NCBI GenBank assembly: GCA_947646095.1
Contig: CANSFI010000017.1
Coordinates: 1-32,782, forward strand
DNA: 32,782 nucleotides
Reading direction: 5' to 3'
From: an uncultured Mycoplasmatota bacterium
GTDB lineage: Bacteria; Bacillota_I; Bacilli_A; RF39; UBA660
Positions 1-32,338 of this stretch are shown here, piece by piece. How positions within the stretch are numbered: the first letter of the stretch is position 1; each line of letters opens with the position of its first letter. The position numbers and the translations under genes are program-made. The notes beneath the pieces were generated by a model. The model did not search any database. It was not told the origin of the DNA and was given only the letters and a program-made list of their open reading frames with translations.

Positions 1-426
1 TTAACAAAAGAATGGACAAATATACCAGCTTATAATTATACCTTAGAAGATGATAAGCCATCAAAATTTGAACAAGAAATATCTAAAATAACTGGTATGA
101 GTGAATCAAAAGCAATGTACCAACCAATTAAAAGAACCAATGTAAGAGCAAGAATGCCAAAATTATCAGATATAGAAGATTTAATAGTACTAGATTTAGA
201 AAATGAAAACCAACCAATGACAATGCCAAAATATTTATATGAAAATTTAAGGGAACCAAATACAGATGAACTACCATCCTGGTATTGGTTATCGACTGCG
301 TTTTCTGATGACTACCGTGCCAGGTATGGCTTCCGTGTGAACTTCTTTGAGTGTTCCAGTGCCAGCGTCAGCACTAGCGACTATGGTGGTGTCCGCCCAG
401 TTATAAAAATAGCAAAAACCATATAA
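1..426 (+). CDS. Pilin-like protein with hypervariable C-type-lectin-like C-terminus, 5' truncated by window edge
   Basis: The reading frame is open from base 1, so the gene starts outside the window; 141 codons are visible before TAA. The visible part closely matches the C-terminal half of the prepilin-type protein at 18584–19543, at both DNA and protein level: shared segments include KEWTNIP, LEDDKPSKFEQE, AMYQPIKRTNVRAR and PMTMPKYLYENL. By homology the missing N-terminus is probably a prepilin signal, but this cannot be seen. Compared with the paralog it has a few extra residues (ISKITGM region). After YWLSTA the two proteins diverge for about 28 codons and then rejoin at GGVRPVIKI. The YWLS...GVRPV pattern is typical of DUF6273-like / C-type-lectin-fold ligand-binding domains. 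A methionine at base 97 could be taken as a start but has no convincing ribosome binding site and lies inside conserved paralogous sequence. Surface display on a pilus is inferred. Confidence 0.8.
   Translation, partial: LTKEWTNIPAYNYTLEDDKPSKFEQEISKITGMSESKAMYQPIKRTNVRARMPKLSDIEDLIVLDLENENQPMTMPKYLYENLREPNTDELPSWYWLSTAFSDDYRARYGFRVNFFECSSASVSTSDYGGVRPVIKIAKTI
283..411 (+). other. Candidate DGR-type variable region (copy 1) with flanking conserved borders
   Basis: The tract 301–384 is about 55% GC by hand count over 295–396, inside otherwise strongly AT-rich DNA. Of its 28 codons, 25 end in C or T, half of them in C. It is bracketed by an 18-nt left border (283–300) that matches the copy at 19406 at 17 of 18 positions, and by a 21-nt right border (391–411, starting gtccgccc) identical to that copy. 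The interior is highly divergent. This is what adenine-directed mutagenesis of AAC/AAT-rich template codons leaves behind. No template repeat or reverse transcriptase is in the window, so the mechanism is inferred. Confidence 0.5.
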
Positions 427-6669: not shown

Positions 6670-7761
6670 ATGAACGAAATAAAAACATTTGATGAAAGAA
6701 AACAAGAATTAGTAAAAAAAGGAAAAGAAAAAGGATTTATAACCTATGAAGAGCTTGCAAATTCACTAAAAGGTTTAGATTTAGATAGTGATTCTTTAGA
6801 TGAACTTTATAATTTATTTAATGAAAATAATATTGCTGTTGTATCAGAAGATGATGATCAAAATAATGATAATGATTCATCTAATGTAGACAAACTACTT
6901 TTAGATGACAATGCTATAACTAAGGATTTAAACATAAATGATCCAGTTCGTATGTATTTAAAAGAAATAGGTCAAATAAAGCTTTTAACCATGGAAGAAG
7001 AATTAGAACTTGCGGATCGTATTATCGAAGGAGATGAGCAAGCTAAACAAATTTTAGCAGAAGCAAATCTACGTTTAGTTGTTAGTATTGCTAAAAGATA
7101 TGTAGGCAGAGGAATGCTATTTCTAGATTTAATTCAAGAAGGAAATATCGGTCTTATGAAATCGGTAGAAAAGTTTGATGTTACAAAAGGATATAAATTT
7201 TCTACTTATGCAACTTGGTGGATTAGACAAGCTATAACTCGTGCTATAGCAGATCAAGCCAGAACTATTCGTGTTCCAGTTCATATGGTTGAAACCATTA
7301 ATAAGTTAGCTCGTGTTCAAAGACAGTTAACCCTAGAACTTAATCGTGAACCAACTGAGGAAGAACTTGCTAAAAAAATGAATATTTCAGTTGACAAAAT
7401 AAGAGATATTTATAAAATTTCTCAAGAACCAGTAAGTTTAGAAACGCCAATAGGTGAAGAAGATGATTCGCACTTAGGTGACTTTGTTCCAGATGAAAGG
7501 AATATGAGCCCTGAGGAATATGCTACTAATGAAATGCTAAAAGATGAAATATCTGAAGTTCTTTTAACATTAACAGAACGTGAAGAAAAGGTTATTCGTT
7601 TACGTTTTGGACTTGAAGATGGAAAAAGTAGAACATTAGAAGAAGTAGGTCAAATGTTTGGAGTAACACGTGAACGTATTCGTCAAATAGAAGCTAAAGC
7701 CTTAAGAAAACTTCGTCACCCTTCAAGATCAAGAAAACTAAAGGATTACATGAGTGATTAA
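6670..7761 (+). CDS. rpoD: Primary RNA polymerase sigma factor RpoD/SigA
   Basis: Housekeeping sigma factor that directs RNA polymerase to TTGACA/TATAAT promoters. 363 residues, close to Bacillus SigA (371). The start has AAGGAG 8 nt upstream. Region 1.1-like residues 1–55 are followed by an acidic linker, then region 1.2 ([17 protein letters not shown]), region 2 ([35 protein letters not shown], and the melting helix [19 protein letters not shown] with both tryptophans), region 3 ([12 protein letters not shown]) and region 4 ([31 protein letters not shown]). The end overlaps the start of trmK by 8 nt. It is a useful reference for the two aberrant sigma paralogs at 21596 and 22564, which lack the WW pair. 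Confidence 0.98.
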
Positions 7762-8887: not shown

Positions 8888-11071
8888 ATGAACAATGAAT
8901 CAAGAAATTCAGGCTCATTTGCAGATGTTTATCAAATTGTTGAACGTGTTACTAAATTTCCAATTCTTTTTATAAACTACTTTTGTTTAGGGTCTATTTT
9001 TACTGGTTATTTCTTAATTTCAGCATTAAAAATGTTATTTTCTCCTATATGTAGATATAGTTTTTTAGGACTTTTATTTATATGTTATGTAGTATATTCA
9101 CTAGTAAAAAAAATTATAAAACTAATAATAAAACTATTAAAATATTTCGCATATGGTTTATCTTTTCCACTTGTATTTACATATAAATCAATGAAAGAAG
9201 AAAATGAAAAAAGAAGAAAACTAGAAGAACAAAGAAAATTAGAAAAATTAGAAAAACAAAAGAAAGAACAAGAAGAGAAAATAAAACAAGAAAAACAAAA
9301 GTTAGAAGAAAAATCAAAAGAAGATACTTTAGTAATTAAAGAACCTAAGCCTACTGAAGTAAAAGAAGATGAAGGAGAATATATAATCCACGCTCCTCAA
9401 AATGAAATATTAGAAGAAGATAAAGAAAAGCCAGAAGAAAATTATATATTAACAAAAGAAGAACGAAAACAAAAAAAATTAGAACAAAAGGCTTTAAAAG
9501 AGGCAAAACGTTTAGAAGAAAAAAATAAACCTAAATTAACAAAAGAAGAAAAAATAAAACTAAAAAAAGAGGAAAAACTGAAAAAGGCAGAAGAAAGAAA
9601 GAAACAACATGCTAAGTTAAATGATGTATATATAAATGAGAATGTTAAATTAAATAAACCTAGTTTAGGTAAAAGAATTATTGATAATTTGAATGATATT
9701 AATCATTTGCCTGATAAAATAGCTGCATCATTTAGAAAAAGCTGGAATAACTTAACATTTGTTAAAAACAGTAAAAATCGTAGAGATATAAATAGGCAAG
9801 CATTACTTATTAACTTTGAAGGTGCTGATGCTGAAAAAAGTGATAAGAAACTAGTTTATGAATATGTTGGTAAAAATAGTGATGGTAAAATTGTTAAAGG
9901 TTATTTTGAAGCATTCTCAAAAGTAGAAGTACATTCATTTTTATTAAGTGAAGGGTTCGAAGTTTATAGTATAAAAACAAATCGTCTTATCCAATTGTTA
10001 CATGGTGGTAAACAAGTAAGTAAAACTAGAATAAAAACTAAAGATTTAATATTCTTTTTAACTCAATTATCTACTTATATTAAAGCTGGAATTCCTTTAG
10101 TAGATGCCCTTAAAATATTAAGTAGACAATATAAAAATAAATCATATGAACGTATTTTTAGAGCAATTATATATGATCTTACAATGGGAGATAACTTTAG
10201 TGATGCTCTATCTAAACAAGGAAATGCTTTTCCAAGATTACTTATTAATATGATTAAAGCATCTGAAATGACAGGAGAGCTTCCAGAAGCTTTGGATGAT
10301 ATGGCTGAGTATTTTACCGAAACAGATAAAACCAGAAAACAAATGATAACAGCCATGATGTATCCAAGTATTATCTTTATTATTTCTATTGCTGCAATAA
10401 CATTTATAATGGTGTTTGTTGTACCAAAATTTGTTACTATTTATGAAAGTATGGATAATGCAAGACTACCATGGATTACACAATTAGTAATTGACATTAG
10501 TAATTTTATAGAAACTAAAATGATTTGGATTATCATTGTATCAGTTTTAATAATTGGTATATTTGTTTATTTATATAAAAATGTTAAATTCTTCAGAACA
10601 CTTATGCAATTTATGGTAATGCATTTACCAGTGTTTGGAAATGTTATCATATATAATGAAGTAACAATGTTTACTAAAACTTTTGCTTCATTATTAAAAC
10701 ATAATGTATTTATAACTAACAGTATGGAAATTTTAAATAAAATAACTAATAACGAAATTTATAAAATGATTATATTAGATACTATTACTAATTTAGCTCG
10801 TGGAGAAAAAATATCTTTAGCATTCAAAGATCATTGGGCTGTACCAATTCCAGCTTATGAAATGATTGTTACAGGAGAACGTACAGGACAACTTCCTGAA
10901 ATGATGAGTAAAGTATCTGCTTATTATCAAGAGATGCATAAAAATGCTGTAGCGCGTATTAAAACATTTATTGAACCAGCCTTAATATTATTTTTAACAT
11001 TTATGGTTGGTGGTATTGTTCTTTCAATAATTGTTCCAATGTTTGATATGTATAACAATATGGGAATATAA
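8888..11071 (+). CDS. pilC: Type IV pilus / type II secretion inner-membrane platform protein PilC (GspF) with long N-terminal extension
   Basis: Platform protein that couples the assembly ATPase to pilin insertion. 727 residues, against about 350–410 for usual PilC. The C-terminal ~400 residues are canonical: a GspF entry segment (YEYVGKNSDGKIVKGYFEA, ~323), first T2SSF domain (DLIFFLTQLSTYIKAGIPLVDAL, ~385), membrane helix (SIIFIISIAAITFIMVFVVPKFV), second T2SSF domain (FTKTFASLLKHNVFITNSMEIL, ~590) and final helix (ALILFLTFMVGGIVLSIIVPMFD). The first ~320 residues are extra: two to three hydrophobic segments (residues ~22–100), then ~150 residues of Lys/Glu-rich probable coiled coil (RRKLEEQRKLEKLEKQKK). 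The start is supported by GGAAGGTG. The prepilin peptidase gene follows after 16 nt. The long extension is unusual; its role is unknown. Confidence 0.92.
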   Translation: MNNESRNSGSFADVYQIVERVTKFPILFINYFCLGSIFTGYFLISALKMLFSPICRYSFLGLLFICYVVYSLVKKIIKLIIKLLKYFAYGLSFPLVFTYKSMKEENEKRRKLEEQRKLEKLEKQKKEQEEKIKQEKQKLEEKSKEDTLVIKEPKPTEVKEDEGEYIIHAPQNEILEEDKEKPEENYILTKEERKQKKLEQKALKEAKRLEEKNKPKLTKEEKIKLKKEEKLKKAEERKKQHAKLNDVYINENVKLNKPSLGKRIIDNLNDINHLPDKIAASFRKSWNNLTFVKNSKNRRDINRQALLINFEGADAEKSDKKLVYEYVGKNSDGKIVKGYFEAFSKVEVHSFLLSEGFEVYSIKTNRLIQLLHGGKQVSKTRIKTKDLIFFLTQLSTYIKAGIPLVDALKILSRQYKNKSYERIFRAIIYDLTMGDNFSDALSKQGNAFPRLLINMIKASEMTGELPEALDDMAEYFTETDKTRKQMITAMMYPSIIFIISIAAITFIMVFVVPKFVTIYESMDNARLPWITQLVIDISNFIETKMIWIIIVSVLIIGIFVYLYKNVKFFRTLMQFMVMHLPVFGNVIIYNEVTMFTKTFASLLKHNVFITNSMEILNKITNNEIYKMIILDTITNLARGEKISLAFKDHWAVPIPAYEMIVTGERTGQLPEMMSKVSAYYQEMHKNAVARIKTFIEPALILFLTFMVGGIVLSIIVPMFDMYNNMGI

Positions 11072-11087
11072 CAAGGAGTAGATGAAG

Positions 11088-11858
11088 ATGTATGTTTATT
11101 ATATAATAGTATTCTTTATATTTGGAACTATTTTTGGTTCATTTTTCAACGTAGTAGGTGACCGATTACCAGAAGGTGAATCTATAATAAAACCATCTTC
11201 TCATTGTCCTAAATGTGGACATAAACTAACACCCTTAGAATTAATTCCCATATTTTCTTTTTTAATTCAAAAAGGAAAATGTAAAAATTGTAATTCTAAA
11301 ATACCAATAGCTCACCCTTTATATGAATTACTTAGTGGTTTTTTATTTTCACTAACTTATATATCTTTTGGATTAAAATTAGAAATTATAATACCACTTA
11401 CATTTATTTCAATTTTATTAATAATAATTGTAAGTGATATTAAATATATGATTATTCCAGATGAAGTTTTAATAGTAGGTATAGTTTTATTAGTATTAGA
11501 AAAAATCTTAATCAGTGGTGTTATATCATTATTATATTCAATTTTAGATGGAGTAATATGTTTTATATTTATGTATCTGCTTAAAAAATTTGGTGATTTC
11601 TTATTCAAAAAAGAATCGATGGGTGGGGGAGATATAAAACTAATGTTTATCTTTGGTTTTGTACTTGGATGGCCATCTGCTATACTATCTATATTCGTAG
11701 GATCGGTTATAGGACTTCCAATATCATTAATTATAGTATCAAGTAATAGTTCACACGAAATACCATTTGGACCATTATTAAGTATTGGTTCTACTATACT
11801 ATTGTTACTACATATAAATACAGATAAAATAATACAATTCTTTAACTATATTAGTTAA
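11088..11858 (+). CDS. pilD: Prepilin peptidase (A24 family, PilD type)
   Basis: Cleaves and N-methylates prepilins at the membrane. 256 residues from ATG 11088; the ATG at 11082 is only 3 nt from AAGGAG, whereas 11088 has the normal 9-nt spacing. GSFFNVVGDRLPEGES opens the N-terminal methylase-type domain, with a CPKC...CKNC zinc site (Cys40, 43, 65, 68). The two catalytic aspartates of the A24 aspartic protease are in VSDIKYMIIPDE (Asp117) and GGGDIKLM (Asp182). About seven to eight membrane segments follow the N-terminal domain. The substrates are the three prepilin-signal genes 5–8 kb downstream. Co-transcribed with pilC. Confidence 0.95.
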   Translation: MYVYYIIVFFIFGTIFGSFFNVVGDRLPEGESIIKPSSHCPKCGHKLTPLELIPIFSFLIQKGKCKNCNSKIPIAHPLYELLSGFLFSLTYISFGLKLEIIIPLTFISILLIIIVSDIKYMIIPDEVLIVGIVLLVLEKILISGVISLLYSILDGVICFIFMYLLKKFGDFLFKKESMGGGDIKLMFIFGFVLGWPSAILSIFVGSVIGLPISLIIVSSNSSHEIPFGPLLSIGSTILLLLHINTDKIIQFFNYIS

Positions 11859-13494: not shown

Positions 13495-13521
13495 AAAGTT
13501 GTGTTAAACATAATGACTGAT
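13495..13521 (+). repeat. Left terminal inverted repeat of the IS
   Basis: It begins aaagttgtgttaaac and ends atgactgat. It is the reverse complement of 14643–14669 except for two bases in the middle. Confidence 0.85.
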
Positions 13522-13586
13522 AAATAAAAAAGGCGTATAATTATATTAGCCAAACAAAAGATAAAGAAAGGATATTTTTATGTAAT

Positions 13587-14653
13587 ATGAAAATAGAAGA
13601 GTTGATAAAAGATCTAGATCCTGTAACTATTATTGAATTTAAAAGTTATATTCAGGATGTTAAATCGAGCATTTATCTGATTTATGTTTTACAAAAAATT
13701 CTAACTCAAAAGTAGTTTCTAAATTTAAAAATAAAGAAATGTTTTGTGAAAAATGTGGATGCAAACTATATAAAAATGGAAAAACAAAAAGTGGCATTCA
13801 AAAATATATCTGCAGTGGTTGTAAAATAACTTTATCAGAAACAACTAATACAATAATTTGTCATAGTAAATTACCTTTTGAAATATGGAGTAATGTAATT
13901 GATAATCTATTAAATGGATTTAGCTTAAGAAGAATTGCTGAAGAAAATAATATTTCACTTTTAATGTCATTTAGAGTAAGACACAAAGTATTATATGCTT
14001 TAAAAAGTTTCATAAAAAATATCAATTTATCTGGGAAAATACAATCAGATGAAAAATATTTTCCCATTAATTTGAAGGGAACAAAGAAGGAAAATATGCC
14101 AAGACATTCAAAAAAAAGAACTTCAACAAGTTCACCATATAGAGGTATTAGTCATCATAAAGTTTGTGTTGTTTCCAGTATAGATGAGAATGATAATTTA
14201 TTATTAAAAATAGTTGGTTTGGGTAGATGTACAACTGATATGTTAAAGAATTCACTAGGTCAAAAATTAAGTAATGCTAAATCAGTTAATGCTGATAGTG
14301 CAAGTGCCTATCAAGATTTTTGTAAAGAATATAATCTTGTATTAAATGCAATTCCTTCTGGATTTCATAGTGATGGTATTTTTAATATATCAGAGATAAA
14401 TGGAATTCATTCACAATTGGAAACGTGGTTTAGTAAATTTAAAGGTGTATCAACTAGACATTTGCAAGAATATCTTGACTGGTTTGTTTATATTTTTACT
14501 ATGAAAAAAAGATTCATGTTAAGTAAAATCAAAACAGAATCTTATTCTAAATTGCTAATAGACAATAATTATATTAAGTCCAAAGATATCTTCAATATTG
14601 AAATGCCCATTGATTTGAATGTTGCATATGCCGAATATCTCCATCAGTCATAA
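13587..14653 (+). pseudogene. IS1595-family transposase, interrupted by a -1 frameshift
   Basis: The start at 13587 opens a 42-codon frame (MKIEELIKDLDPVTIIEFKS...) that ends at TAG 13715. The rest of the protein is in the -1 frame, beginning about 13648 as IEHLSDLCFTKNSNSKVV and continuing through the ATG at 13739 to TAA at 14653. One extra A in gttaaatcg (13649–13657) would restore a ~355-residue protein, the normal length. Downstream are a zinc ribbon (CEKCG...CSGC) and the ISXO2-like DDE domain with SDEKYF, NADSASAY and NGIHSQLETWFSKFKG. The segment from 13739 alone (304 residues) keeps the zinc ribbon and catalytic domain. Whether the shift is inactivating or programmed cannot be decided; the slip site AAA is short, so loss is more likely. 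The last codons lie within the right inverted repeat. Confidence 0.75.
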
Positions 14654-14669
14654 AGTTTAACACAACTTT
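14643..14669 (-). repeat. Right terminal inverted repeat of the IS
   Basis: Its inner end atcagtcat overlaps the transposase stop region; its outer end is aacacaacttt. It matches the left repeat at 25 of 27 positions. Confidence 0.85.
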
Positions 14670-14680: not shown

Positions 14681-14699
14681 AAGAAGCATTATGCTTCTT
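14681..14699 (-). terminator. Terminator of pilB
   Basis: The arms aagaagca and tgcttctt pair perfectly around tta; on the minus strand this is followed by TTATTTT. It overlaps the pilB stop codon and lies 12 nt outside the right end of the IS. Confidence 0.65.
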
Positions 14700-16368
14700 C
14701 TTTATGTAAACTTTTAAGTAATTCATTAATATCAGCTAGAAGTTTTTCATTATCTTCAATACTAGAATCTTTATCAGAACTTCTAATATCTTTAGCGTGA
14801 TTAGTTTCTACTTTTTCTGTTGTAGATGTACTAGTTATATCATCACTATCTAACATATCAAAATCTTCATCTAATAAATACCTGTCTCTAACATTTGATT
14901 TTTCTTCATGAGAATCAAATGTATTATTAAAATTATCATTATCTGAATACTTATTAGTATTTTTTATATTAGTTTTTTTAATTTTTTTAGCAACATCAAT
15001 ATCATCTAACATAGCTTCTACTTCTTTAGCATATTTATCTATATCATTAGAATCTTTAAGTTCATTTGGTAAATCTTTTTTATTAATATTTTCTATTTTA
15101 TTTACTTTATCATTTTCACTTTCATGAGCAATATTAGTATAATTAATAGCTTCTTTTAAACTAGATTTCCCATAATTTTTATCATCGTCATCTAATTCAA
15201 TCAACTTTAATAATTCTTCGAAAGTAGTAAGACCATTTAAAACTTTTTCTAAACCATCTTGAAGTAGAGTAATAACATCAGATCTATATACTAATTCACG
15301 CAATTTTTCTTTTTTAATTCCACTACTAATAGCATCTTTAATTTCTTGATTAATTAAAAGTACTTCATGAATAGCAATTCTTCCTTTATATCCAGTTGAA
15401 CATTCATCACATGAATCAGCTGAATATATTTCATTAACATCTTTTCCAAGAATATCTTTAAATAATTTTTTTTCATATTCATTAGTTTTTCTTAATTTAC
15501 GACATTTAGGACATAAACGACGAGCTAATTTTTGAGAGATAATTCCAGTTAAAGCACTTGATAATAAATATCTTTCAACTTCCATATCAAGTAAACGTTC
15601 AATTGTATTTAATGAATCATTTGTATGGATTGTTGATAAAACTAAGTGACCTGTAATAGAAGCTCTAACAGCAATTTTAGCAGTTTCTGTATCACGAATT
15701 TCCCCAATCATTATAATGTTAGGGTCTTGACGTAAAATAGAACGTAGAGCAGTAGCGAAATCAAGACCAATTTCACTATTAGTTTGAATTTGGTTAACAC
15801 CTTCAATATCCATTTCTATTGGATCTTCAACAGTAATTATATTAGTATCCTCACGATTTAATTTTTGAAGTATTGAATAAACAGTAGTAGATTTACCACT
15901 ACCAGTTGCTCCTGTTACTAGAACAATACCATTAGGTACATTAATCATCTTTAAAACTTTTAAATAATTAGCTTCACTAAATCCTAAATGCTCTAAACCA
16001 CTTAAACTCATAGAATAATCCAAAATACGAATAACTACTTTTTCACCATTAATAATAGGAATAGCAGAAACACGGAGATCTAGATTAACATCTTTTAAAG
16101 TTGCTTTAATTGCTCCATCTTGAGGTAATCTATTCTCAGTAATATTCATTCCAGAAATAATTTTAATACGAGTTATCAAATTTTTCTTAACAGTATTAGG
16201 AATTTCAGCATAGTCATGTAAAGCTCCATCAATACGAATTCTAACTTTCATAAATTTTTCGTGTGGATCAAAGTGAATATCACTAGCGCCTCTCTTAGCA
16301 GCATCTACTAAGATATCATTAACTATTTCAACAATAGGCATTTTTTCAAAGTCAAATTTTTTTAACAT
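14689..16368 (-). CDS. pilB: Type IV pilus assembly ATPase PilB/GspE, shortened N-terminus and acidic C-terminal tail
   Basis: Hexameric ATPase that drives pilin polymerisation from the cytoplasm. 559 residues. It begins directly at the N2-type domain (IVNDILVDAAKRGASDIHFDPHE, residues ~15–37), so the N-terminal MshEN/N1 domain of most PilB/GspE proteins is missing. Walker A is GATGSGKST (153–161), the Asp box and Walker B run from EDPIEMDIEG to IIMIGEIRD (218–226), the His box is GHLVLSTIHTND (240–251), and the zinc tetracysteine is Cys286, 289, 320 and 323. After residue ~395 comes a ~160-residue Asp/Glu/Asn/Ser-rich tail not found in the usual family, probably disordered. The ribosome binding site AAGGGG is somewhat far (12 nt). 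It is read opposite to all other pilus genes. Confidence 0.95.
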   Translation of the reverse strand: MLKKFDFEKMPIVEIVNDILVDAAKRGASDIHFDPHEKFMKVRIRIDGALHDYAEIPNTVKKNLITRIKIISGMNITENRLPQDGAIKATLKDVNLDLRVSAIPIINGEKVVIRILDYSMSLSGLEHLGFSEANYLKVLKMINVPNGIVLVTGATGSGKSTTVYSILQKLNREDTNIITVEDPIEMDIEGVNQIQTNSEIGLDFATALRSILRQDPNIIMIGEIRDTETAKIAVRASITGHLVLSTIHTNDSLNTIERLLDMEVERYLLSSALTGIISQKLARRLCPKCRKLRKTNEYEKKLFKDILGKDVNEIYSADSCDECSTGYKGRIAIHEVLLINQEIKDAISSGIKKEKLRELVYRSDVITLLQDGLEKVLNGLTTFEELLKLIELDDDDKNYGKSSLKEAINYTNIAHESENDKVNKIENINKKDLPNELKDSNDIDKYAKEVEAMLDDIDVAKKIKKTNIKNTNKYSDNDNFNNTFDSHEEKSNVRDRYLLDEDFDMLDSDDITSTSTTEKVETNHAKDIRSSDKDSSIEDNEKLLADINELLKSLHKEEA

Positions 16369-16468: not shown

Positions 16469-16951
16469 ATGAAAAAAATGAATAATAAGGGGTTTATGCT
16501 TACGGAAACATTAATAGTTTCAACATTTTTAGTAACAACATTATTATTTATATATATGCAATTTAATACTGTAACTAATTCATATAATACAAGTTTTAAA
16601 TATAATACTGTAAATAGTATGTATGCCTTAAATAATATAGCTGATTATATTAAAACAGAGGAAATTGATAAATTAAAAAATGATTTAACTAATTCTGAAT
16701 ATATTGATATATCTAAATGTCCTAATACTTATTTTAAGGAAACAGAATATTGTCAAGTATTATTTGAAACATTAAAAGTAAAAACAGTTATATTTACCTT
16801 AGAAAATTTAAAAGAATTAAAAAGTAAACAAACTGATTTAGATCAGACTATAGTAGATTTTATAGATTATTTGAACTATGATCAAACTGATGGATATAGA
16901 GTAATTGCAGAATTTAATGATAACACATTCGCAAGTTTAAAAGTAGAGTAG
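16469..16951 (+). CDS. Minor pseudopilin with prepilin signal
   Basis: 160 residues. The short positive leader MKKMNNKG is followed by FMLTETLIVSTFLVTTLLFIYMQF, a type IV prepilin signal: cleavage would be after Gly8, Glu is at mature position 5, and a single hydrophobic helix follows. The mature domain is small (about 120 residues), with two cysteines (ISKCPNT, EYCQV) that could pair. It begins the pilin operon; the next pilin starts 8 nt after its TAG. Likely a minor pilin that helps initiate or cap the filament. I do not see a more specific family. Confidence 0.85.
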   Translation: MKKMNNKGFMLTETLIVSTFLVTTLLFIYMQFNTVTNSYNTSFKYNTVNSMYALNNIADYIKTEEIDKLKNDLTNSEYIDISKCPNTYFKETEYCQVLFETLKVKTVIFTLENLKELKSKQTDLDQTIVDFIDYLNYDQTDGYRVIAEFNDNTFASLKVE

Positions 16952-16959: not shown

Positions 16960-18513
16960 ATGAATAAAAAAGGGTTTACTGTTGTAGAATTAATCGTATC
17001 TTTTTCTTTAATTTCTTTAATTGTTGCACTTTTATTTCAGGTAATATTTATTTTAAAAGATTTATACACTGATTCAGGTATTAGAACAGAACTTCTAACT
17101 AAACAAGCAATAATAAGCGAAAAAATAAACGATGAACTTACCAATAAAACATTAGTGTATGCTAATAAATGTGGTAATAATTGTATCAATTTTGCTTTTA
17201 GTGATGGAAGCATGAGTGAATTATCTTTTAATAGAGATGATAATACATTTAAATATGGAGATTATAAAACAAAATTAATAAGTGGTAGTATATATGGTAA
17301 TATTAATATTTCAACAGAAACAATTGTTGGAGTAAGTACAGGTAGAAATAATTCTATTGTTAAAATAAATATACCTATTTATCATAAGTTATTTAAAAAA
17401 GAAGATTATGGTATTAATATAGCTTATCAATATGACAATAGACTTACAGCTATTTCAGGATTATTTGTATCAGATGTTTTAGATTCAGAAAAAAGGGTAT
17501 ATCTAATAGGAAATTCTAATGACATAGCTTTTACAGGAATCAATTATAATGATCCAGGATATTTTGTTGTAGATGGTAAAGGAAATATAATAGAAGATGA
17601 TAATTCAGTTGTTGTAAGTGGTAATGTAGGTAGTGAAGTTGGAAAAACTTATACAATCACTTATACTATATTAGATAGTAATGAAAATATAATGAGTACA
17701 GCATCACGTAATGTAACAGTTATTGATAGTATTACAACTTTTAATTATAATGGTGATATTCAAACCTTTAAAGCTCCAATTAATGGATTATATAAAATAG
17801 AAGTATGGGGAGCACAAGGAGGAACTGTTGGAAGTCAAGCTGTTGGTGGTAAAGGTGGCTATACAACAGGACAAATTAATTTAACTAAAAATACTACTTT
17901 AAACATTTATGTTGGTGGTCAAGGAAGTTTTGATAAAAATAAATCAGTATCAGGTGGTTTTAATGGTGGAGGTAAATCTGGATATGGTAGTGATACTTCA
18001 GGTGCATCTGGTGGTGGTGCTAGTGACGTTAGAAATGGTAATGAATTAAGTAACAGGATTATAATTGCTGGAGGAGGTGGCGGAGCTGGAAGTAGAAACG
18101 AATCATCTGATCCTTCAAATGGAGGAGCAGGTGGTGGAATTAATGGTTTAATTGGTTCTTATTCAACAATCTCTTATAATGGTAGTCCTGGGACATCTTC
18201 AAATGGAGGAGCACATGCTACTTATAACACTAATATAACTTCTAATCCTACAGCTGGATCTTTAGGAATTGGTGGAAATGGAGGAAGTTACTCTGATACT
18301 TATGGAGGAGGTGGCGGTGGAGCTGGCTACTACGGTGGTGGCGGCGGAGTTCGTTATGGCTCTGGTGCTGGAGGTAGTGGATATTGTGGCTCTATGTTAA
18401 ACTGTACCACTTATGATGGAAGTAAATCATTTCCTTCTGCAAATGGTTCTAATGAAACTGGTCATAGTGGTAATGGAGTTGTTAAAATAACTTTAATAAG
18501 CGTTACAAATTAA
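16960..18513 (+). CDS. Large pseudopilin with Ig-like segment and ALK/LTK-like glycine-rich domain
   Basis: 517 residues. The prepilin signal is MNKKG|FTVVELIVSFSLISLIV with Glu at mature position 5. A pilin-like stretch extends to about residue 165. A bacterial Ig-like, DUF5011-type segment follows, with the typical opening LIGNSNDIAFTGINYNDPGY near 183 and ending ASRNVTVID. From residue ~265, TFNYNGDIQTFKAPINGLYKIEVWGAQGG marks the glycine-rich domain otherwise known from ALK/LTK receptor tyrosine kinases and many bacterial surface proteins (PF12810-like). Its Gly runs (GGGGGAG, GGGGGVRYG) are compatible with a polyglycine-II helix bundle, and two cysteines (YCGSMLNC) lie near the end. Too large for a major pilin, it is a good candidate for a filament-tip or surface-binding subunit. 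Gly codons raise local GC. Confidence 0.88.
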   Translation: MNKKGFTVVELIVSFSLISLIVALLFQVIFILKDLYTDSGIRTELLTKQAIISEKINDELTNKTLVYANKCGNNCINFAFSDGSMSELSFNRDDNTFKYGDYKTKLISGSIYGNINISTETIVGVSTGRNNSIVKINIPIYHKLFKKEDYGINIAYQYDNRLTAISGLFVSDVLDSEKRVYLIGNSNDIAFTGINYNDPGYFVVDGKGNIIEDDNSVVVSGNVGSEVGKTYTITYTILDSNENIMSTASRNVTVIDSITTFNYNGDIQTFKAPINGLYKIEVWGAQGGTVGSQAVGGKGGYTTGQINLTKNTTLNIYVGGQGSFDKNKSVSGGFNGGGKSGYGSDTSGASGGGASDVRNGNELSNRIIIAGGGGGAGSRNESSDPSNGGAGGGINGLIGSYSTISYNGSPGTSSNGGAHATYNTNITSNPTAGSLGIGGNGGSYSDTYGGGGGGAGYYGGGGGVRYGSGAGGSGYCGSMLNCTTYDGSKSFPSANGSNETGHSGNGVVKITLISVTN

Positions 18514-18583: not shown

Positions 18584-19543
18584 ATGAAAAAGAAAGGATT
18601 TACACTTATAGAATTACTCGCTGTAATAATAATACTATCTATAATAGCCCTAATTACAGTACCAGTAATAATGAATATAATAGAAAGAGCTAATAAGAGT
18701 GCATTTAAAGATTCAGCCTATGGAATAATAAAAGCAGGAGAATTACATTATGCAGATAAATTATTAACTACTGAGGGAATGACAAATGATATAACATTCA
18801 CATTTCCAGATGCAACAGGACTAGATATAAAAGGATCAAGACCAAAGAGTGGAAATATGAAAGTAACAAAAGAAGGAAAAATAGAATTAGCTATAACAAA
18901 TGGAATATGTGAAAAGGGAACAAAGCTAAATGTAAAAGTAAATGATACAGAAAACTATGATTTCTATGTAATAGATGATACAAATGGAGAACTAACATTA
19001 CTAATGAATAAAAATATAGGTGATGGAGTTGATTGGATAACAAACTGGGATTATAAAGACATTGGAGGAACAAATTGGCCTTCTCATAATCGTAGTGGTG
19101 CAAATGATATGGGACCAATAACTGCCCTAAACTATTTAGAAGACCAAACAAAAGAATGGACAAATATACCAACATATGATTATACATTAGAAGATGATAA
19201 ACCATCAAAATTTGAACAAGAAAGTGATTCAAAAGCAATGTACCAACCAATTAAAAGAACCAATGTAAGAGCAAGACTACCAAAATTATCAGATATAGAA
19301 GATTTAATAGTACTAGATTTCGAAAATAAAAACCAACCAATGACAATGCCAAAATATTTATATGAAAATCTAAGTGAATCAAATACAAAAGAACAATCAT
19401 ATATGTATTGGTTATCAACTGCGAGCTCCGATAGCTCCAGTGAAGGCTTTGGTGTGTACGATGGGGATGTCGCCATCGGTGGCGTTAGCTATAGCTTCAA
19501 TGGAGGAGTCCGCCCAGTTATAAAAATATCTAAAAGTCTATAA
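18584..19543 (+). CDS. Pilin-like protein with hypervariable C-type-lectin-like C-terminus (candidate DGR target)
   Basis: 319 residues; AGGAG is 9 nt before the ATG. The N-terminus MKKKG|FTLIELLAVIIILSIIALI is a textbook type IV prepilin signal. The pilin-like segment (to ~residue 80) is followed by an all-beta looking middle with WITNWDYKDIGGTNWP, then a domain that resembles DUF6273 / the C-type lectin fold: RTNVRARLPKLSDI, YWLSTA, GGVRPVIKI at the very end. Residues ~281–306 are encoded by a GC-rich tract that differs almost completely from the left-edge paralog, while flanking codons are nearly identical. The stop overlaps the end of the convergent ylbJ by 6 nt. By analogy with DGR targets, the variable residues would line an exposed binding face displayed on the pilus; this is inference from sequence pattern alone. 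Confidence 0.88.
   Translation: MKKKGFTLIELLAVIIILSIIALITVPVIMNIIERANKSAFKDSAYGIIKAGELHYADKLLTTEGMTNDITFTFPDATGLDIKGSRPKSGNMKVTKEGKIELAITNGICEKGTKLNVKVNDTENYDFYVIDDTNGELTLLMNKNIGDGVDWITNWDYKDIGGTNWPSHNRSGANDMGPITALNYLEDQTKEWTNIPTYDYTLEDDKPSKFEQESDSKAMYQPIKRTNVRARLPKLSDIEDLIVLDFENKNQPMTMPKYLYENLSESNTKEQSYMYWLSTASSDSSSEGFGVYDGDVAIGGVSYSFNGGVRPVIKISKSL
19406..19528 (+). other. Candidate DGR-type variable region (copy 2) with flanking conserved borders
   Basis: The variable tract 19424–19501 (26 codons) lies between a left border at 19406–19423 and a GC-rich right border at 19508–19528. GC is about 56% over 19418–19513 by hand count, against roughly a quarter around it; 23 of 26 codons end in C or T, 13 of them in C. 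Relative to copy 1 it is two codons shorter, with no codon gap in the last ~18. The identical 21-nt right border would correspond to an initiation-of-mutagenic-homing-like element. No template repeat is seen in the window. Confidence 0.5.
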
Positions 19544-21595: not shown

Positions 21596-22519
21596 ATGAA
21601 AACAAAGTCAAAAGAAGAGCAATTAGAAATTAATCAATTGTACTTGGATGAAATAGGAAGAATACCTTTATTAACACCAGAACAGGAAAAAGAATTGGTT
21701 TTAAAAATTAATCAAGGTGATGGAAGTGCTAAAAAGAAACTTATGGAAAGTAATTTAAGATTAGTAGTATCAATTGCTAAAAAATATGTAGGTAGAGGTA
21801 TGTTGTTTCTAGATTTAATTCAAGAAGGGAATTTAGGTCTTATAAAAGCAGTAGAAAACTATGATATAAATAGAGGTAAATTTTCTTCATATGCTGGTAC
21901 TATAATTGAAAAGGAAATAAAAAGATCATTTGCTAGAAAAAACAACAATATTACAATGCCAATACAGGAATATGAAACTTTTGTTAAGTATAAGGCAATA
22001 GTAGCTTCTTTAAGTACAGATTATAGAAAACCAACTAACGAAGAAGTCGCACAAAAAATGAATATATCTATTTCTAAAGTTGAAGAATTAGAAAAAATCA
22101 AAATAAATACAATCAGTTTAAACCAAATTATTTATAGTGAAGATGGAGACGAAATAGGAACAAAAAAAATTATGTCAGATGATGAAATATCAACGGAAGA
22201 AATGGCTATCAATAACTTATTATCAGAACAACTTTATAAACTATTTAATGATTGCAATTTAACTAATCAAGAATATAAATTTGTATTACTTAGATTTGGT
22301 TTCGAGGGTAATCCAATGAGTAAAGAGGGTATAGGAAAAGTACTTGGTGTAACTAGTACTCGTGTTAGGCAAATAGAAAAACAAGCATTAAAAAAATTTA
22401 GAAAATTTAAAGAAACTAAATATTTAGTTGATTACACAGAAAATCCAATCGAAGCATTAAAAAATCTAGAATATTTTCAAAAAGAGTATTCTAAATCAAA
22501 AAGAAAAACAAAAAAATAA
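21596..22519 (+). CDS. Alternative sigma-70 family factor, tandem paralog 1
   Basis: 307 residues; AGGGGGAATAGA precedes the ATG. Region 1.2 (LYLDEIGRIPLLTPEQEKEL) and region 2 ([38 protein letters not shown]) closely follow SigA. The melting segment differs: Sig[15 protein letters not shown] becomes YAGTIIEKEIKRSFAR, so both tryptophans are lost and the helix looks more like sporulation/stress sigma factors (compare IENEI of SigE/SigK). A region 3-like segment (DYRKPTNEEVAQKMNISISKVEEL) and region 4 (VLLRFGFEGNPMSKEGIGKVLGVTSTRVRQIEKQAL) follow, then a ~35-residue basic tail. Codons ~72–163 are identical at DNA level to paralog 2. It probably directs a special regulon; which one cannot be read here. 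Confidence 0.85.
   Translation: MKTKSKEEQLEINQLYLDEIGRIPLLTPEQEKELVLKINQGDGSAKKKLMESNLRLVVSIAKKYVGRGMLFLDLIQEGNLGLIKAVENYDINRGKFSSYAGTIIEKEIKRSFARKNNNITMPIQEYETFVKYKAIVASLSTDYRKPTNEEVAQKMNISISKVEELEKIKINTISLNQIIYSEDGDEIGTKKIMSDDEISTEEMAINNLLSEQLYKLFNDCNLTNQEYKFVLLRFGFEGNPMSKEGIGKVLGVTSTRVRQIEKQALKKFRKFKETKYLVDYTENPIEALKNLEYFQKEYSKSKRKTKK
21810..22085 (+). repeat. 276-bp block identical to 22778–23053 (sigma paralogs)
   Basis: Compared by eye base by base: no difference over 276 bp, with an abrupt return to divergent sequence on both sides. It encodes the late region 2 and region 3 part of both sigma factors. This is a direct repeat with a 968-bp period. Confidence 0.9.
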
Positions 22520-22563
22520 ATGGTTATTAAGAACTAAAATAAAAAATATAGGAGGAACTATTT

Positions 22564-23757
22564 ATGCTTAATAATTTAGAAAATAGTCAGTTAGAAGCTC
22601 TTAAATTATATTTAGATGAAATAGGAAGAATACCTTTATTAACACTAGAACAAGAACATGAATTAATTTTAAAAATTAATCAAGGCGATGAAAGTGCTAA
22701 AAAGAAATTTATAGAAGGCAATTTAAGATTAGTAGTTACTATTGCTAAAAAATATTTAAATAGAGGAATTGATTTTTTAGATTTAATTCAAGAAGGGAAT
22801 TTAGGTCTTATAAAAGCAGTAGAAAACTATGATATAAATAGAGGTAAATTTTCTTCATATGCTGGTACTATAATTGAAAAGGAAATAAAAAGATCATTTG
22901 CTAGAAAAAACAACAATATTACAATGCCAATACAGGAATATGAAACTTTTGTTAAGTATAAGGCAATAGTAGCTTCTTTAAGTACAGATTATAGAAAACC
23001 AACTAACGAAGAAGTCGCACAAAAAATGAATATATCTATTTCTAAAGTTGAAGGATTAGAACAAATTAAAATAGATACTATTAGTTTGAATTATTTAATA
23101 TCTAATGATGATAAAACAGATACAGAAGTAGAAAAATTTATTTCATTAGAAGAAATGTCACTAGAAGATATAGTTATTAAAAATATGTTATCAGAACAAA
23201 TATATAAATTATTTAAAGAAAGCAATTTAAAAGATAGAGAAATTGAAGTTTTAATACTTAGATTTGGATTTAAAAATAATCCTATGACACTAGAACAAGT
23301 AAGTAAAATATTTAATTTATCACTAGAACGTATACGACAAATAGAGACTAAAGCATTGAGAAAACTTAGAGATTGTAAATATACTAAATATTTAGTTGAT
23401 TACACAGAAAATCCAATTGAAGCATTAAAAAATCTAGAATCTTATCAACTGGGTAATAATAAATGTTCAACGAAGGGACAATATAAATCTATAACTAAAA
23501 AACCAATGTTAACTCTAGAAACAATTTATCAATATTTTGATCAAAATACTAAGGAAGAGATAGATACAATGTTGCAAAAATTATCTGATGATGAACTAAA
23601 TTTAATTAAATTGCGTTCTGGCAAGTTAACTAAAGAACAATCAATAAAATTTTATGGAAGTTTAATTCCTAAAATGAAAAATATGTTAAAAAAACCTAAT
23701 AATCAACTTTTAAAAAGTGAAAGATTACAAAAAGAAAAACGATATGTTAAAATATAA
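22564..23757 (+). CDS. Alternative sigma-70 family factor, tandem paralog 2, with C-terminal extension
   Basis: 397 residues; AGGAGG is 8 nt before the ATG, 44 nt after paralog 1. The domain order is as in paralog 1: [50 protein letters not shown], the identical block with YAGTIIEKEIKRSFAR in place of the SigA melting helix, and region 4 (VLILRFGFKNNPMTLEQVSKIFNLSLERIRQIETKALRKL). Region 4 differs clearly from paralog 1, so the two could read different -35 sites with the same -10 contacts. After the shared TKYLVDYTENPIEALKNLE tail there is an extra ~100-residue segment (TLETIYQYFDQNTKEEIDTMLQKLSDDELNLIKL) not seen in paralog 1 and not recognised. It is followed after 17 nt by a frameshifted gene. 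Confidence 0.85.
   Translation: MLNNLENSQLEALKLYLDEIGRIPLLTLEQEHELILKINQGDESAKKKFIEGNLRLVVTIAKKYLNRGIDFLDLIQEGNLGLIKAVENYDINRGKFSSYAGTIIEKEIKRSFARKNNNITMPIQEYETFVKYKAIVASLSTDYRKPTNEEVAQKMNISISKVEGLEQIKIDTISLNYLISNDDKTDTEVEKFISLEEMSLEDIVIKNMLSEQIYKLFKESNLKDREIEVLILRFGFKNNPMTLEQVSKIFNLSLERIRQIETKALRKLRDCKYTKYLVDYTENPIEALKNLESYQLGNNKCSTKGQYKSITKKPMLTLETIYQYFDQNTKEEIDTMLQKLSDDELNLIKLRSGKLTKEQSIKFYGSLIPKMKNMLKKPNNQLLKSERLQKEKRYVKI
22778..23053 (+). repeat. 276-bp block identical to 21810–22085 (sigma paralogs)
   Basis: Second copy of the direct repeat, in the same reading frame and at the same codons (~72–163) of the second sigma gene. Confidence 0.9.
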
Positions 23758-27659: not shown

Positions 27660-29354
27660 ATGTTAGAAGAATTAATAAAAGAAGAATACAAAAAATATTT
27701 AGAAAGTATTTTTGATGTAGATAAAGAAAATAAATTTATTGAAAGTATTATCGACAATAAGAGAAAAGAAACGAATGATGATGAATTAAATAAAAATAAA
27801 ACTGTTTTAAATAACTGTATAGTGTTTCATTTTTCAGAAGGATTTGCTCTAGTATATGATGAAACTAGAACTAAACGTTATAATTTTATAGATAAAGAAG
27901 GAAATTTAATTTCAGACAACTGGTATAGTGATGCTTCGAGTTTCCATGAAGGATATGCTAGAGTACGTTTCGGTAATGTGCCTTATGCTGGTTATAATTT
28001 TATAGATAAAAATGGTAATTTGTTATTAGAAAAAAATTATTTTAGGGCAGATGATTTTTGTAATGGTTATGCTATAGTAGCTGATTTAAATGAGTCAAAG
28101 ATATTCGAATATAATATCCTCGATAAAAGAGGTAACTTTCTTTTAAAAGAATGGACTAAATCAACATTTTATAATCATCTTGACAGGGGATATGTTTATG
28201 AAATTGATCAAAATATGTATATAAATTTGCTAGGAGAAAAAGTTCCTGATTTATCACCTACAACATTTATTTATAGTGATGGCTATAAAGTTCTTGAAAG
28301 TAATAATATGGCTTATCTATTAGATGAATACAATGATATTATAATGCAAGCTGAAATTTTAATGAATAGATTGTTTGAGTCAGATATTCCAAATTTATGT
28401 TGGAGATATTTAACTAAAGAATCTATTGAAAAGAAATTTTTGTTTTATGAATATAAAATTGATGAAATGACTTATAAATTAAAATATGAACCAATTTTTA
28501 ATTACAATAATTTTATTCTTTGTAAAAAAAATACAAAATACTATTTATATGATAAAAATAATAAAAAATATATATTAATTTCAAATAAAGAAATAAAATA
28601 TGGTAGAAACTATCTAGAATTTGAAGGTAAAACTTACTTTTTAATAGATAAACTTATTGATGTTACAGGAATTAATGTAAATAATAGTCTAGAATTAAAA
28701 GAAAATATAGATGAAGTATTAGAATTAGAATTAGAAGAATTTGAAGATAAGTTTTTAACTAAAGAGTTTTATGAAGATGCAATGAAAAAAATAGAAAAAT
28801 CAAATGAAGATGATAAAAAACAACAAATGGAAGAATTAAAACAAAAATTAATAGGGAAAGCTAAACAACAAGAAGAATTAAAAGTAAAAGAATTAGAAAC
28901 GCTAGAGAAAGAATTAGCGAATTCTTTAGATGTTTTTGTAAAAAAATCTTCAAATTTTCAAAATAAATTGCAAGTTTCAAAAAATAGTAATACAAAAATT
29001 AAAGAACGTATATCAGAAGAAATGTTATTTATAAAAGTAGATGAACATTTAGAAATAAGACCAGAATTTTTACAAAGTAATATCCTTAGATACTTTGATT
29101 TAGCATTCATATCATTTGATAATGTTAAAGTAAGTGGAATAGACTTATCTTATACAAATGTTAATATAAATCCTCAAACAGTATATAATAAAGATATGAG
29201 TAATGGAAACTATAGTGGACTTAATTTTACTAATAAAAATTTTGAAGGAGTTAATACTACTAACTCTATATTTAATGATTGTATATTTGATTTTACAGAT
29301 AATATTAATTTAAATGAAGAATTAAATAAAGTTAAAACTATTAATAAGATTTAA
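27660..29354 (+). CDS. WG-repeat protein 1 with pentapeptide-like C-terminus
   Basis: 564 residues; AGGGTGAT precedes the ATG. A conserved ~25-residue head (MLEELIKEEYKKYLESIF) is shared by all three genes of the array. Then come about four WG (KWG-type) repeats, with the core F-x-(E/N)-GYA followed by YNFIDKEGN (residues ~57–180). A non-repeat middle follows (YKLKYEPIFNYNNFILCKK, ISNKEIKYGRNYLEFEGKTYFL), then a Lys/Glu coiled coil (~375–450), and a C-terminal segment (SGIDLSYTNVNINP, NGNYSGLNFTNKNFEGVN) with the five-residue periodicity of pentapeptide repeats. No signal peptide or membrane segment, so cytoplasmic as far as can be seen. WG repeats are thought to form beta structures for protein binding; the function here is unknown. 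Confidence 0.85.
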   Translation: MLEELIKEEYKKYLESIFDVDKENKFIESIIDNKRKETNDDELNKNKTVLNNCIVFHFSEGFALVYDETRTKRYNFIDKEGNLISDNWYSDASSFHEGYARVRFGNVPYAGYNFIDKNGNLLLEKNYFRADDFCNGYAIVADLNESKIFEYNILDKRGNFLLKEWTKSTFYNHLDRGYVYEIDQNMYINLLGEKVPDLSPTTFIYSDGYKVLESNNMAYLLDEYNDIIMQAEILMNRLFESDIPNLCWRYLTKESIEKKFLFYEYKIDEMTYKLKYEPIFNYNNFILCKKNTKYYLYDKNNKKYILISNKEIKYGRNYLEFEGKTYFLIDKLIDVTGINVNNSLELKENIDEVLELELEEFEDKFLTKEFYEDAMKKIEKSNEDDKKQQMEELKQKLIGKAKQQEELKVKELETLEKELANSLDVFVKKSSNFQNKLQVSKNSNTKIKERISEEMLFIKVDEHLEIRPEFLQSNILRYFDLAFISFDNVKVSGIDLSYTNVNINPQTVYNKDMSNGNYSGLNFTNKNFEGVNTTNSIFNDCIFDFTDNINLNEELNKVKTINKI

Positions 29355-29371
29355 GAAATTAAGTCTTTTTT
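29346..29371 (+). terminator. Terminator of WG-repeat gene 1
   Basis: aagatttaa (29346–29354) pairs with ttaagtctt (29359–29367) over 9 bp (one G·T) around the tetraloop gaaa, followed by T residues. The left arm contains the stop codon. Confidence 0.7.
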
Positions 29372-29372
29372 C

Positions 29373-29401
29373 TTGTTTAAAATAAATATTTATATTATAA
29401 T
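29373..29401 (+). promoter_or_regulatory. Promoter of WG-repeat gene 2
   Basis: TTGTTT (29373–29378), 17-nt spacer, TATAAT (29396–29401). It starts within the terminator tail of gene 1, so each gene is a self-contained unit. Confidence 0.75.
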
Positions 29402-29424
29402 AAAGCCTATTAAAGGGTGATACT

Positions 29425-32268
29425 ATGTTAGAAGAATTAATAAAAGAAGAATATAAAAAATATTTAGAAAGTATTTTTGAAGTAGATAAAGAAAATGAAT
29501 TTATTGAAAAAATTATTAGTAATAAATTAGATCAAAATAATAACGATTGTTTTTATCATAATATTAGATTTGATAAAAAACCGCCTATATTTTTTCTGCA
29601 ACTAGTCAAAGCAATAAAATTGAAACCTGATAATTTTAATTTACGAAATTTTTCTTGTGGACTTGCAGTAATTGAAAATGATAATGATTATAACAAATAT
29701 AATTTTATAGATAAGGAAGGTAATTTATTATTAGATAAATGGTTAGATTATGCTGATGATTTTAGTGAAGGTTATGCTTCATTTATGATAAATAATAAAT
29801 GGAATTTTATAGATAAAGAAGGTAATCAATTATTAGAAGAATGGTTGAATTATGCAAAAAGATTTAGTGAAGGCTATGCTACAGGTAGAATCGGTAATAA
29901 AAATGTTGTTATTGATACAGAAGGTAATATAATTGCAGAAAGTTATGAAAAGTATGATGAAACAGTAGGTCCTTTTTTTAATGGCCATGCTAGATTTAAA
30001 AAGGAAGGCAAATATGGTTTTGTCAATCTAAAATTACAAGAAGTTGGTTACTATGATTATGCTTGGCATTTTAGTGAAGGTTATGCTCAAGTAAAAATTA
30101 ATAATAAGTGGTATTTTATTAATACAAATATCGAATTAGCGTCTAATCAATACTACGAAGAAACTGAAAACTTTTGTAATGGCTATGCTATAGTCAAAAA
30201 AAACAATAAATGGAATTTTATTGATAAAAGCCATAATTTAATTTTAAAAGAAGGAATTGATTGTGACCAATTATACAGTTTTTATGATGGATATGCTAGA
30301 ATATATGATAAATCTAAAGGTTATAATTTTATAGACAAAACAGGAAAATTGTTATCAGAAGAATGGTATGATTATGCTGATAATTTTAGTGAAGGGTACG
30401 CTGTTGTTAAAAAAAATAATAAATGGAACTTTATTGATACTAATGGAAACTTATTATCTAGAAATTGGATATTTTGTGATAATATGCTAAGTTTTTATGA
30501 GGGGTATGCTCAAATAGAACAAAATAAAAAATGTAATTTTATAGATAAAAAGGGAAAATTAATATTTCGAAATTGGTATATTCATGCGAGTAATTTTCAT
30601 GACGGATATACTATTATTAGAAATAATAATGGTCTTAATTATATCAATTCAAAAGAAGAATTACTCTTAAAAAATCAATATTTTTACAAATGTGTATTTA
30701 ATGATGGATATACTATAGTAGAAAATCATATTGGTAAATATAATTTTGTTGATATTAATGGAAATTTGTTATTGAAAAAATTTTATTATACTGTTAAAAC
30801 TTTTCATAATGGATATGCTGCTATAAAAGAAGATAATAAATGGAGGTTTATAAATAAGGAAGGAAATTTTATATCTAATGATTATTATGACGAAGTAGGC
30901 AATTTTTATGAAAAACGTGCTTGGGTAAAAATAAATAACAAGTATAATTTTATAAATACTGAAGGTGATTTGATATCTAAAAAATGGTATGATTATGCTG
31001 ATCTTTTCTCTTGTGGTATAGCACGAGTAGGGAAAAAACAGCCCTTCAGTTCAAAAATGGGGTATAATTTTATTAATAAAAGAGGAGAACTATTATTAGA
31101 TGAATGGAATTTTGGTTCTAAATTCCAAATTAATTATAATTCTGCACCAATTGATGATACAATAAATATAGTATTTCTTTATAATAATGGATATAAAATA
31201 ATGCAAAATGGTAATACAGTTTATTTATTAGATGATTATAATGATATTATAATGCTTTCTAATTCAAATGAAAAAATAAAAGAAGAAGATATTTTAAAGT
31301 TAAAATGGAAAGCAATTATTGATTCTAAAAAAGTAAAAAATAACTTTTTCTCTTTTGAATATAATGATGATAATATAACTTATAAACTAAAATATGAACC
31401 AGTTTATAACTATAATAACTTTATCCTTTGTAAAAATGAAGAAAAATATTATTTATATAGTAAATCTAAAAATGATTATACTTTTATTTCAAATAAAGAA
31501 ATAAAATATGGTAAAAACTATTTAGAATTTGAAGGTCATACTTATTTTATAACAGATGAACTTGTTGAGGTTACAGGAATAAAAGTAAGTAGTAGTTTAG
31601 AATTAAAAGATAATATAGAAGAAATATTAGAAATAGAGGAATTTAAAGATAAATACTTAAATGGCGAATTTTATGAAAATGCTTTAGGTAAAGTAGAAAA
31701 ATCAAATATAGATAATAAAAAACAAGAATTAGAAAATATAAAAAAAATACTAGCTAAATTTTCTATAAAAAAAGAAGAACAAAGATTAGAAAAAATAAAA
31801 GAACTTAATGATAGATTAAACAGTTCAGCTGAAACTTTATTAAACAGTTTTACAAATTTTTTAAATATACAAAAAGAGTTAGAACAATTAGATAATCCTA
31901 ATGTAGAAATCAAAAAAATGTATATATCAGAGGAAATGTTATTTATAAAAATGAATGATCATCTAGAAATAAATCCATTGTTTTTACAGATTAATTTTTT
32001 AAGATACTTTGATTTAACACTAATATCATTTACTAATGTTAAAATAAGTGGAATAGACTTATCTTATACAAATGCTAATATAAATCCTCAAACAGTATAT
32101 AATAAAGATATGAGTAATGGAAACTATAGTGGACTTAATTTTACTAATAAAAATTTTGAAGGAGTTAATACTACTAACTCTATATTTAATGATTGTATAT
32201 TTGATTTTACAGATAATATTAATTTAAATGAAGAATTAAATAAAGTTAAAACTATTAATAAGATTTAA
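29425..32268 (+). CDS. WG-repeat protein 2, long form with about 14 repeats
   Basis: 947 residues. The head is nearly identical to gene 1 (MLEELIKEEYKKYLESIFEV). I count 14 WG repeats between residues ~70 and ~570, each about 35 residues: a F-x-(E/D/N)-GYA turn, a variable strand, then (W/Y)NFID-x-x-GNLL and a Trp/Tyr-rich link (WYDYADNFSEGYAVV). The post-repeat part matches gene 1 (YKLKYEPVYNYNNFILCK, ISNKEIKYGKNYLEFEGH), followed by a coiled coil (KKEEQRLEKIKELNDRL) and the same pentapeptide-like C-terminus; the last ~63 codons are identical in DNA. AGGGTGAT precedes the ATG. It differs from gene 1 mainly by repeat number. No export signal is seen. Confidence 0.88.
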   Translation: MLEELIKEEYKKYLESIFEVDKENEFIEKIISNKLDQNNNDCFYHNIRFDKKPPIFFLQLVKAIKLKPDNFNLRNFSCGLAVIENDNDYNKYNFIDKEGNLLLDKWLDYADDFSEGYASFMINNKWNFIDKEGNQLLEEWLNYAKRFSEGYATGRIGNKNVVIDTEGNIIAESYEKYDETVGPFFNGHARFKKEGKYGFVNLKLQEVGYYDYAWHFSEGYAQVKINNKWYFINTNIELASNQYYEETENFCNGYAIVKKNNKWNFIDKSHNLILKEGIDCDQLYSFYDGYARIYDKSKGYNFIDKTGKLLSEEWYDYADNFSEGYAVVKKNNKWNFIDTNGNLLSRNWIFCDNMLSFYEGYAQIEQNKKCNFIDKKGKLIFRNWYIHASNFHDGYTIIRNNNGLNYINSKEELLLKNQYFYKCVFNDGYTIVENHIGKYNFVDINGNLLLKKFYYTVKTFHNGYAAIKEDNKWRFINKEGNFISNDYYDEVGNFYEKRAWVKINNKYNFINTEGDLISKKWYDYADLFSCGIARVGKKQPFSSKMGYNFINKRGELLLDEWNFGSKFQINYNSAPIDDTINIVFLYNNGYKIMQNGNTVYLLDDYNDIIMLSNSNEKIKEEDILKLKWKAIIDSKKVKNNFFSFEYNDDNITYKLKYEPVYNYNNFILCKNEEKYYLYSKSKNDYTFISNKEIKYGKNYLEFEGHTYFITDELVEVTGIKVSSSLELKDNIEEILEIEEFKDKYLNGEFYENALGKVEKSNIDNKKQELENIKKILAKFSIKKEEQRLEKIKELNDRLNSSAETLLNSFTNFLNIQKELEQLDNPNVEIKKMYISEEMLFIKMNDHLEINPLFLQINFLRYFDLTLISFTNVKISGIDLSYTNANINPQTVYNKDMSNGNYSGLNFTNKNFEGVNTTNSIFNDCIFDFTDNINLNEELNKVKTINKI

Positions 32269-32285
32269 GAAATTAAGTCTTTTTT
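32260..32285 (+). terminator. Terminator of WG-repeat gene 2
   Basis: Same 9-bp hairpin with gaaa loop and T tail as after gene 1, within the identical block. Confidence 0.7.
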
Positions 32286-32286
32286 C

Positions 32287-32315: not shown

Positions 32316-32338
32316 AAAACCTATTCAAAGGTGATATT

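Follow-up and report, generated by a model that had tools for sequence, protein, structure and literature searches.

Two pilin genes in the stretch of DNA analysed here (the window; 32,782 nucleotides, contig 17 of a 1.38-Mb genome in 46 contigs, estimated to be 95% complete) share the borders of a short tract near their 3' ends and differ between those borders. They raise the question of whether the tracts are rewritten by a retroelement encoded elsewhere in the genome. Our analysis indicates that they very probably are, as variable regions (VRs) of a diversity-generating retroelement (DGR) whose targets, written in trans, form a large family of type IV prepilins dispersed through the genome. 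The two genes, referred to as copy 1 and copy 2, and their tracts are as follows:

1..426, + strand: C-terminal part of pilin copy 2, with 74% protein identity to copy 1; a member of the C-terminal domain family whose start lies beyond the contig edge
295..400, + strand: VR of copy 2, ACTGCG...CGCCCAG, from alignment to the genome's template
391..400, + strand: GTCCGCCCAG, the 3' end of template homology in copy 2, with one mismatch to the template's GTTCGCCCAG
18584..19543, + strand: pilin copy 1, a 319-aa type IV prepilin with a variable C-terminal domain
19418..19517, + strand: VR of copy 1, from alignment to the genome's template

As first noticed in the initial annotation, the copies share a left border (283-300 and 19406-19423, 17 of 18 nucleotides identical) and a right border (391-411 and 19508-19528, 21/21), and the interiors between them differ, comprising 30 codons in copy 2 at the left edge and 28 in copy 1. 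The upstream DNA is also alike, although "near-identical" was a slightly generous description: 238 of 259 aligned bases agree (92%), and there is one 21-nt gap. Differences within the tracts far exceed those in the flanks (Fisher p = 4e-9), and the GC content is 0.54-0.57 in both tracts compared to 0.29 in the flanks, in a window of 24% GC. Sorted by codon position 1/2/3, the differences between the copies number 14/9/15, with third positions varying freely. The suggestion that the bases in agc-NNT-agc-NNC-NNT-ggN-ggN are fixed except where a template would hold adenine therefore fits that short stretch, provided that the template reads GGA GGA, but not the interior as a whole, where positions 1 and 2 do not dominate. 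The contrast between the two copies had been put forward as strong evidence for directed diversification; by itself it is weak, and it is the template and a sister genome, described below, that supply the evidence.

Copy 1 begins with a type IV prepilin signal (N_methyl PF07963, E=3.8e-7; TIGR02532, E=9e-8) of class III, GFTLIE, and its modelled structure has an N-terminal helix at 8-59. The window also contains the following pilus genes:

8888..11071, + strand: PilC/GspF-type pilus platform protein (T2SSF PF00482, E=1.3e-49)
11082..11858, + strand: prepilin peptidase of the PilD type (Peptidase_A24, E=7.6e-18; A24_N_bact, E=8.6e-33)
14689..16368, - strand: PilB/GspE-type pilus assembly ATPase (T2SSE PF00437, E=4.9e-126)
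16469..16951, + strand: prepilin-like gene, a probable minor pilin, with the N-terminus MNNKGFMLTETLIV read from the sequence and no Pfam match
16960..18513, + strand: prepilin with Ig-like and glycine-rich domains (N_methyl, E=4.2e-4; Bact_surface_Ig-like, E=2e-8; ALK_LTK_GRD, E=8e-39)

All three assembly genes, PilB, PilC and PilD, are thus within the window, and their proximity to copy 1 places it in a pilus assembly cluster. At 13495-14669, close to these genes, 44-nt inverted repeats that are 77% complementary enclose a transposase gene of the IS1595 type (E=1.7e-9). Elsewhere, the window holds two adjacent, related sigma-factor-like genes (21596-23757; 89% DNA identity over 300 nt), in addition to a separate main sigma gene (6670-7761), and three tandem paralogues (27660-32782), at least one with WG-type repeats, of which the first two are 92% identical in their 3' parts (300 nt) and differ in repeat number.

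The C-terminal domain of copy 1 was modelled by AlphaFold2 with a pLDDT of 90.6, a better result than for the whole pilin. Its sequence match to DUF6273 is weak, being found in 5 of 31 members with a best E of 3.3e-4, and its fold matches viral DUF6273 proteins with E=5.6e-5. Against the PDB, neither the whole pilin nor the C-terminal domain model gave a significant match to a solved structure, C-type lectins scoring E>3 and the Legionella Lcl C-terminal domain E=0.37. A C-type lectin fold is a likely candidate, and the domain resembles the C-type-lectin-like DUF6273 and DUF1566 target domains of other DGRs to the extent of these DUF6273 matches in sequence and fold.

The same genome contains a complete DGR on another contig. 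Its sole RVT_1 gene (E=4e-25) lies on contig 8 and encodes a reverse transcriptase (RT) of the DGR type, with the motifs IGNMTSQ and YMDD, as expected from [I/V/L]GxxxSQ and YxDD, and a match to phrog_1423 (E=4e-92). Upstream of the RT is an Avd gene (bAvd PF22296, E=1.8e-10; phrog_3206, E=2.5e-13; NF033474, E=1.5e-13, which falls below that model's own cut-off), and a 110-aa ORF resembling MutS domain I precedes Avd (L001:2630-2962, - strand; PF01624, E=2e-5). The template, rich in Asn codons, lies within the end of the RT ORF (ACTGCAAACTCC...GGTGTTCGCCCAG, C8:30990-31092, minus strand), so that the Asn-rich tail ATANSNNSNNSFNVNYNGNVDGNSVFNNNNGGVRPDS of this ORF is the template itself. Since the RT ORF (L001:1168-2325, - strand) reads through the template, translation would give the RT an Asn-rich tail of 45 residues; in the sister genome the template and the RT end lie apart. 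Just downstream of the template, a 362-aa prepilin carries a tract with changes at 14 of 35 template adenines and at none of the 67 remaining bases (15/36 and 0/71 when scanned separately within slightly wider limits). Adenine-only change of this kind is the hallmark of a DGR, and with the complete cassette it bears out the earlier proposal of directed, adenine-templated diversification. A search with the border pattern found no second template in this genome. In a viral collection, the nearest RT was 46% identical and the exact pilin right border was absent.

We then compared the window copies to this template, using neutral alignment scoring that gave adenines no privilege. In copy 1 (19418-19517), 19/33 adenines and 18/66 other bases were changed (Fisher p = 0.0034), and in copy 2 (295-400), 21/34 and 15/65 (p = 1.8e-4); that is, 58-62% of adenines and 23-27% of other bases differ. 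Similarity to the template exceeded that of codon shuffles by 4.4 (copy 1) and 3.3 (copy 2) standard deviations. This similarity, together with the adenine excess, indicates that both tracts descend from the lineage of the present template. However, differences were not confined to adenines, and neither copy is cleanly derived from the template present in this assembly. Nor does a single simple template account for both, as the initial annotation had supposed, given the non-adenine mismatches in each and the third-position differences between them. Past GTCCGCCCAG in copy 2 the homology ends, the template going on with ATTC and the gene with TTATAAAA, and GTCCGCCCAG is the probable initiation-of-homing border. 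GCG on the left and GTC CGC CC on the right are common to the window copies and a copy on contig 4; the corresponding bases of the present template are GCA and GTT CGC CC, and the tracts on contigs 20 and 28 end GGG TCT CGC CCA. The simplest reading of these bases is that at least three template versions existed over time or among strains, and the window copies are best read as last written by older or different versions.

A reading that comes only just short of an even chance is that the window copies are dead remnants, written by a DGR template since lost from the lineage and no longer rewritten; this would be a special case of DGR action, not a competing account. In its favor are the 15-18 non-adenine positions at which the copies mismatch the present template, and the left-over targets of a replaced DGR type known in Treponema denticola (PMC4891356). 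Against it, reading frame, borders and homing-border bases are intact and copy 1 lies beside pilus assembly genes, although these features are not decisive either way. It is far less probable that the two genes are ordinary duplicates whose tips evolve fast, relaxed or under diversifying selection, with no retroelement involved. The many third-position differences and the imperfect fit to the present template agree with such a history, but the adenine excess, the clear similarity to the template, the high GC content of the tracts in an AT-rich window, the CGCCCAG border common to tracts and template, and the existence of paralogues that are clearly template-written all argue against it.

The expectation of several targets per genome was borne out by the distribution of the C-terminal pilin domain, which occurs at about 32 scattered places (33 rows, two of which are one broken copy). 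About 10 tracts resemble DGR products in their C/G-ended codons and in having ends like those of the template, and most others are AT-rich and lack an adenine excess; the contig 8 target is the only clean product of the present template in this genome. Among template-like pairs, the differences by codon position are 12/11/2 for contigs 20 and 28 and 19/14/2 for contigs 8 and 22, the pattern expected of DGR writing. On contig C13 (~44974-45171; L041/L060) there is a remnant in which a prepilin start directly precedes a tract ending GVRPVIKVSKTI, as though the gene had lost its middle part.

Clear evidence of writing in trans comes from a sister genome of the same genus (G001; 1.0 Mb, 5 contigs, one RT). 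It has a single template, one among 29 border matches (0 in a reversed control), and 38 pilin-type ORFs distributed over all five contigs carry the tract. Their non-adenine changes relative to the template are graded, from 0/65 (three genes), 0/63, 1/65, 2/65 (the gene adjoining the RT), 3/65, 5/65 and 8/65 to about one half. Four targets therefore match every one of the 63-65 aligned non-adenine template bases. The share of changed adenines is ~0.57 (sd 0.07) and shows no trend with non-adenine change (Spearman -0.03); in six clean or nearly clean targets, template adenines read A 90, G 67, T 54 and C 11. Furthermore, three of the targets with zero non-adenine change (L286, L307 and L312) are only 36-54% identical to one another in the 120 nt upstream (ungapped comparison), so that copying of finished tracts cannot account for their identity. 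These results bear directly on gene conversion among pilin genes and silent cassettes, of the kind known for Neisseria pilE/pilS, in which existing tracts are swapped without template-directed mutagenesis: the many paralogues, some truncated or broken, and the sharp tract borders would suit it, but it is unable to make differences at template adenines only, such as those of the contig 8 pair and the clean targets of G001, where 63-67 other bases show 0 changes, and with RT, Avd and template all present it is very improbable as an account of the tracts and refuted as the sole mechanism. Gene conversion may add recombination on top of DGR writing.

All ~41 pilin places in G001 (loci L281-L341) are on the replication-leading strand, with the GC skew flipping at C3 ~365 kb. 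The excess is weak, since 90% of other ORFs in sampled stretches are likewise oriented (Fisher p = 0.03-0.06). An orientation preference has been measured for a reconstituted DGR (PMC12875486), and the G001 arrangement is consistent with such a preference but only suggestive.

Taking the window tracts as DGR variable regions, we propose that the template, at the 3' end of the contig 8 RT gene, would be transcribed into RNA and this transcript reverse-transcribed by the RT with Avd, with template adenines misread at random. The mutated cDNA would then take the place of the corresponding 3' tract of a pilin gene, with the shared CGCCCAG end as anchor; by analogy, homing would follow the Bordetella phage scheme. 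The adenine codons of the template are mostly AAC or AAT, and therefore codon positions 1 and 2 mainly change and stop codons are avoided. As the tract encodes part of the DUF6273-like C-terminal domain shown on the pilin, the binding specificity of the pilus would be diversified, on the view that pili with the variable domain reach the surface and bind ligands. More tentatively, and with somewhat less confidence than we give to the dead-remnant reading, a single retroelement could serve as a genome-wide writer of type IV pilins, in which dozens of pilins are rewritten singly, template turnover leaves layered tips, and all targets are codirectional with replication in an orientation that favors homing.

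The system shares with the DGR of Bordetella phage BPP-1 an IGxxxSQ RT, Avd, an adenine-rich template, a VR at the 3' end of the target and a G/C-rich shared 3' border, but is located on a bacterial chromosome, has dozens of scattered type IV prepilin targets and a template that overlaps the RT 3' end. The Treponema denticola DGR (TvpA family; PMC4891356) likewise pairs a single RT and template with distant targets, some of which fit a different, lost template type, although it has 2-7 lipoprotein targets per isolate compared to ~32-38 pilin copies per genome here. Cyanobacterial DGRs with dispersed C-type-lectin paralogues (PMC7517822) and Trichodesmium, where template homology occurs at 18 loci (PMC8867640), also have scattered targets that are written in trans at the 3' ends of genes; in contrast to the present targets these are not pilins, and they have been discussed with regard to regulatory pathways. 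DGR-diversified pilus proteins of gut bacteria are known from Bacteroides (Macadangdang et al. 2024, cited in PMC12632263), where, as far as the citing paper describes them, they are type V (lipoprotein) tip pilins rather than type IV prepilins with a class III signal. Among the openly available papers searched, none combined DGRs with "type IV pilin" or "RF39". Remote, left-over and dispersed targets were already known, and the present case is set apart by its type IV prepilin targets and by how many of them one template serves.

RTs related to this one are widespread in uncultured Bacilli, among them bins that carry the labels Erysipelotrichaceae, Tenericutes and Candidatus Onthousia. Prepilin-like targets were present at 9 of the 47 loci with a clear template-target pair (eight by motif script and L116 by eye), and a GVRPV-type C-terminal motif is common among the other targets. 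A single clade of pilin-targeting RTs was rejected, as it forced at least six changes on the RT tree.

Remote targets are overlooked by surveys restricted to the RT neighbourhood, and Roux et al. 2021 state that such targets escape their own RT-neighbourhood method (PMC8144416). The grading of G001 targets by non-adenine divergence is possibly a natural record of the time since each was last written, and the system opens to test the choice that a DGR makes among many trans targets, the evolution of templates and any role of replication direction in nature. With ~32-38 pilin genes facing one cassette, these small genomes (1.0-1.4 Mb) give a large share to changeable surface fibres, and rewriting of pilin tips would let a gut-type Bacilli bacterium keep altering what these fibres bind.
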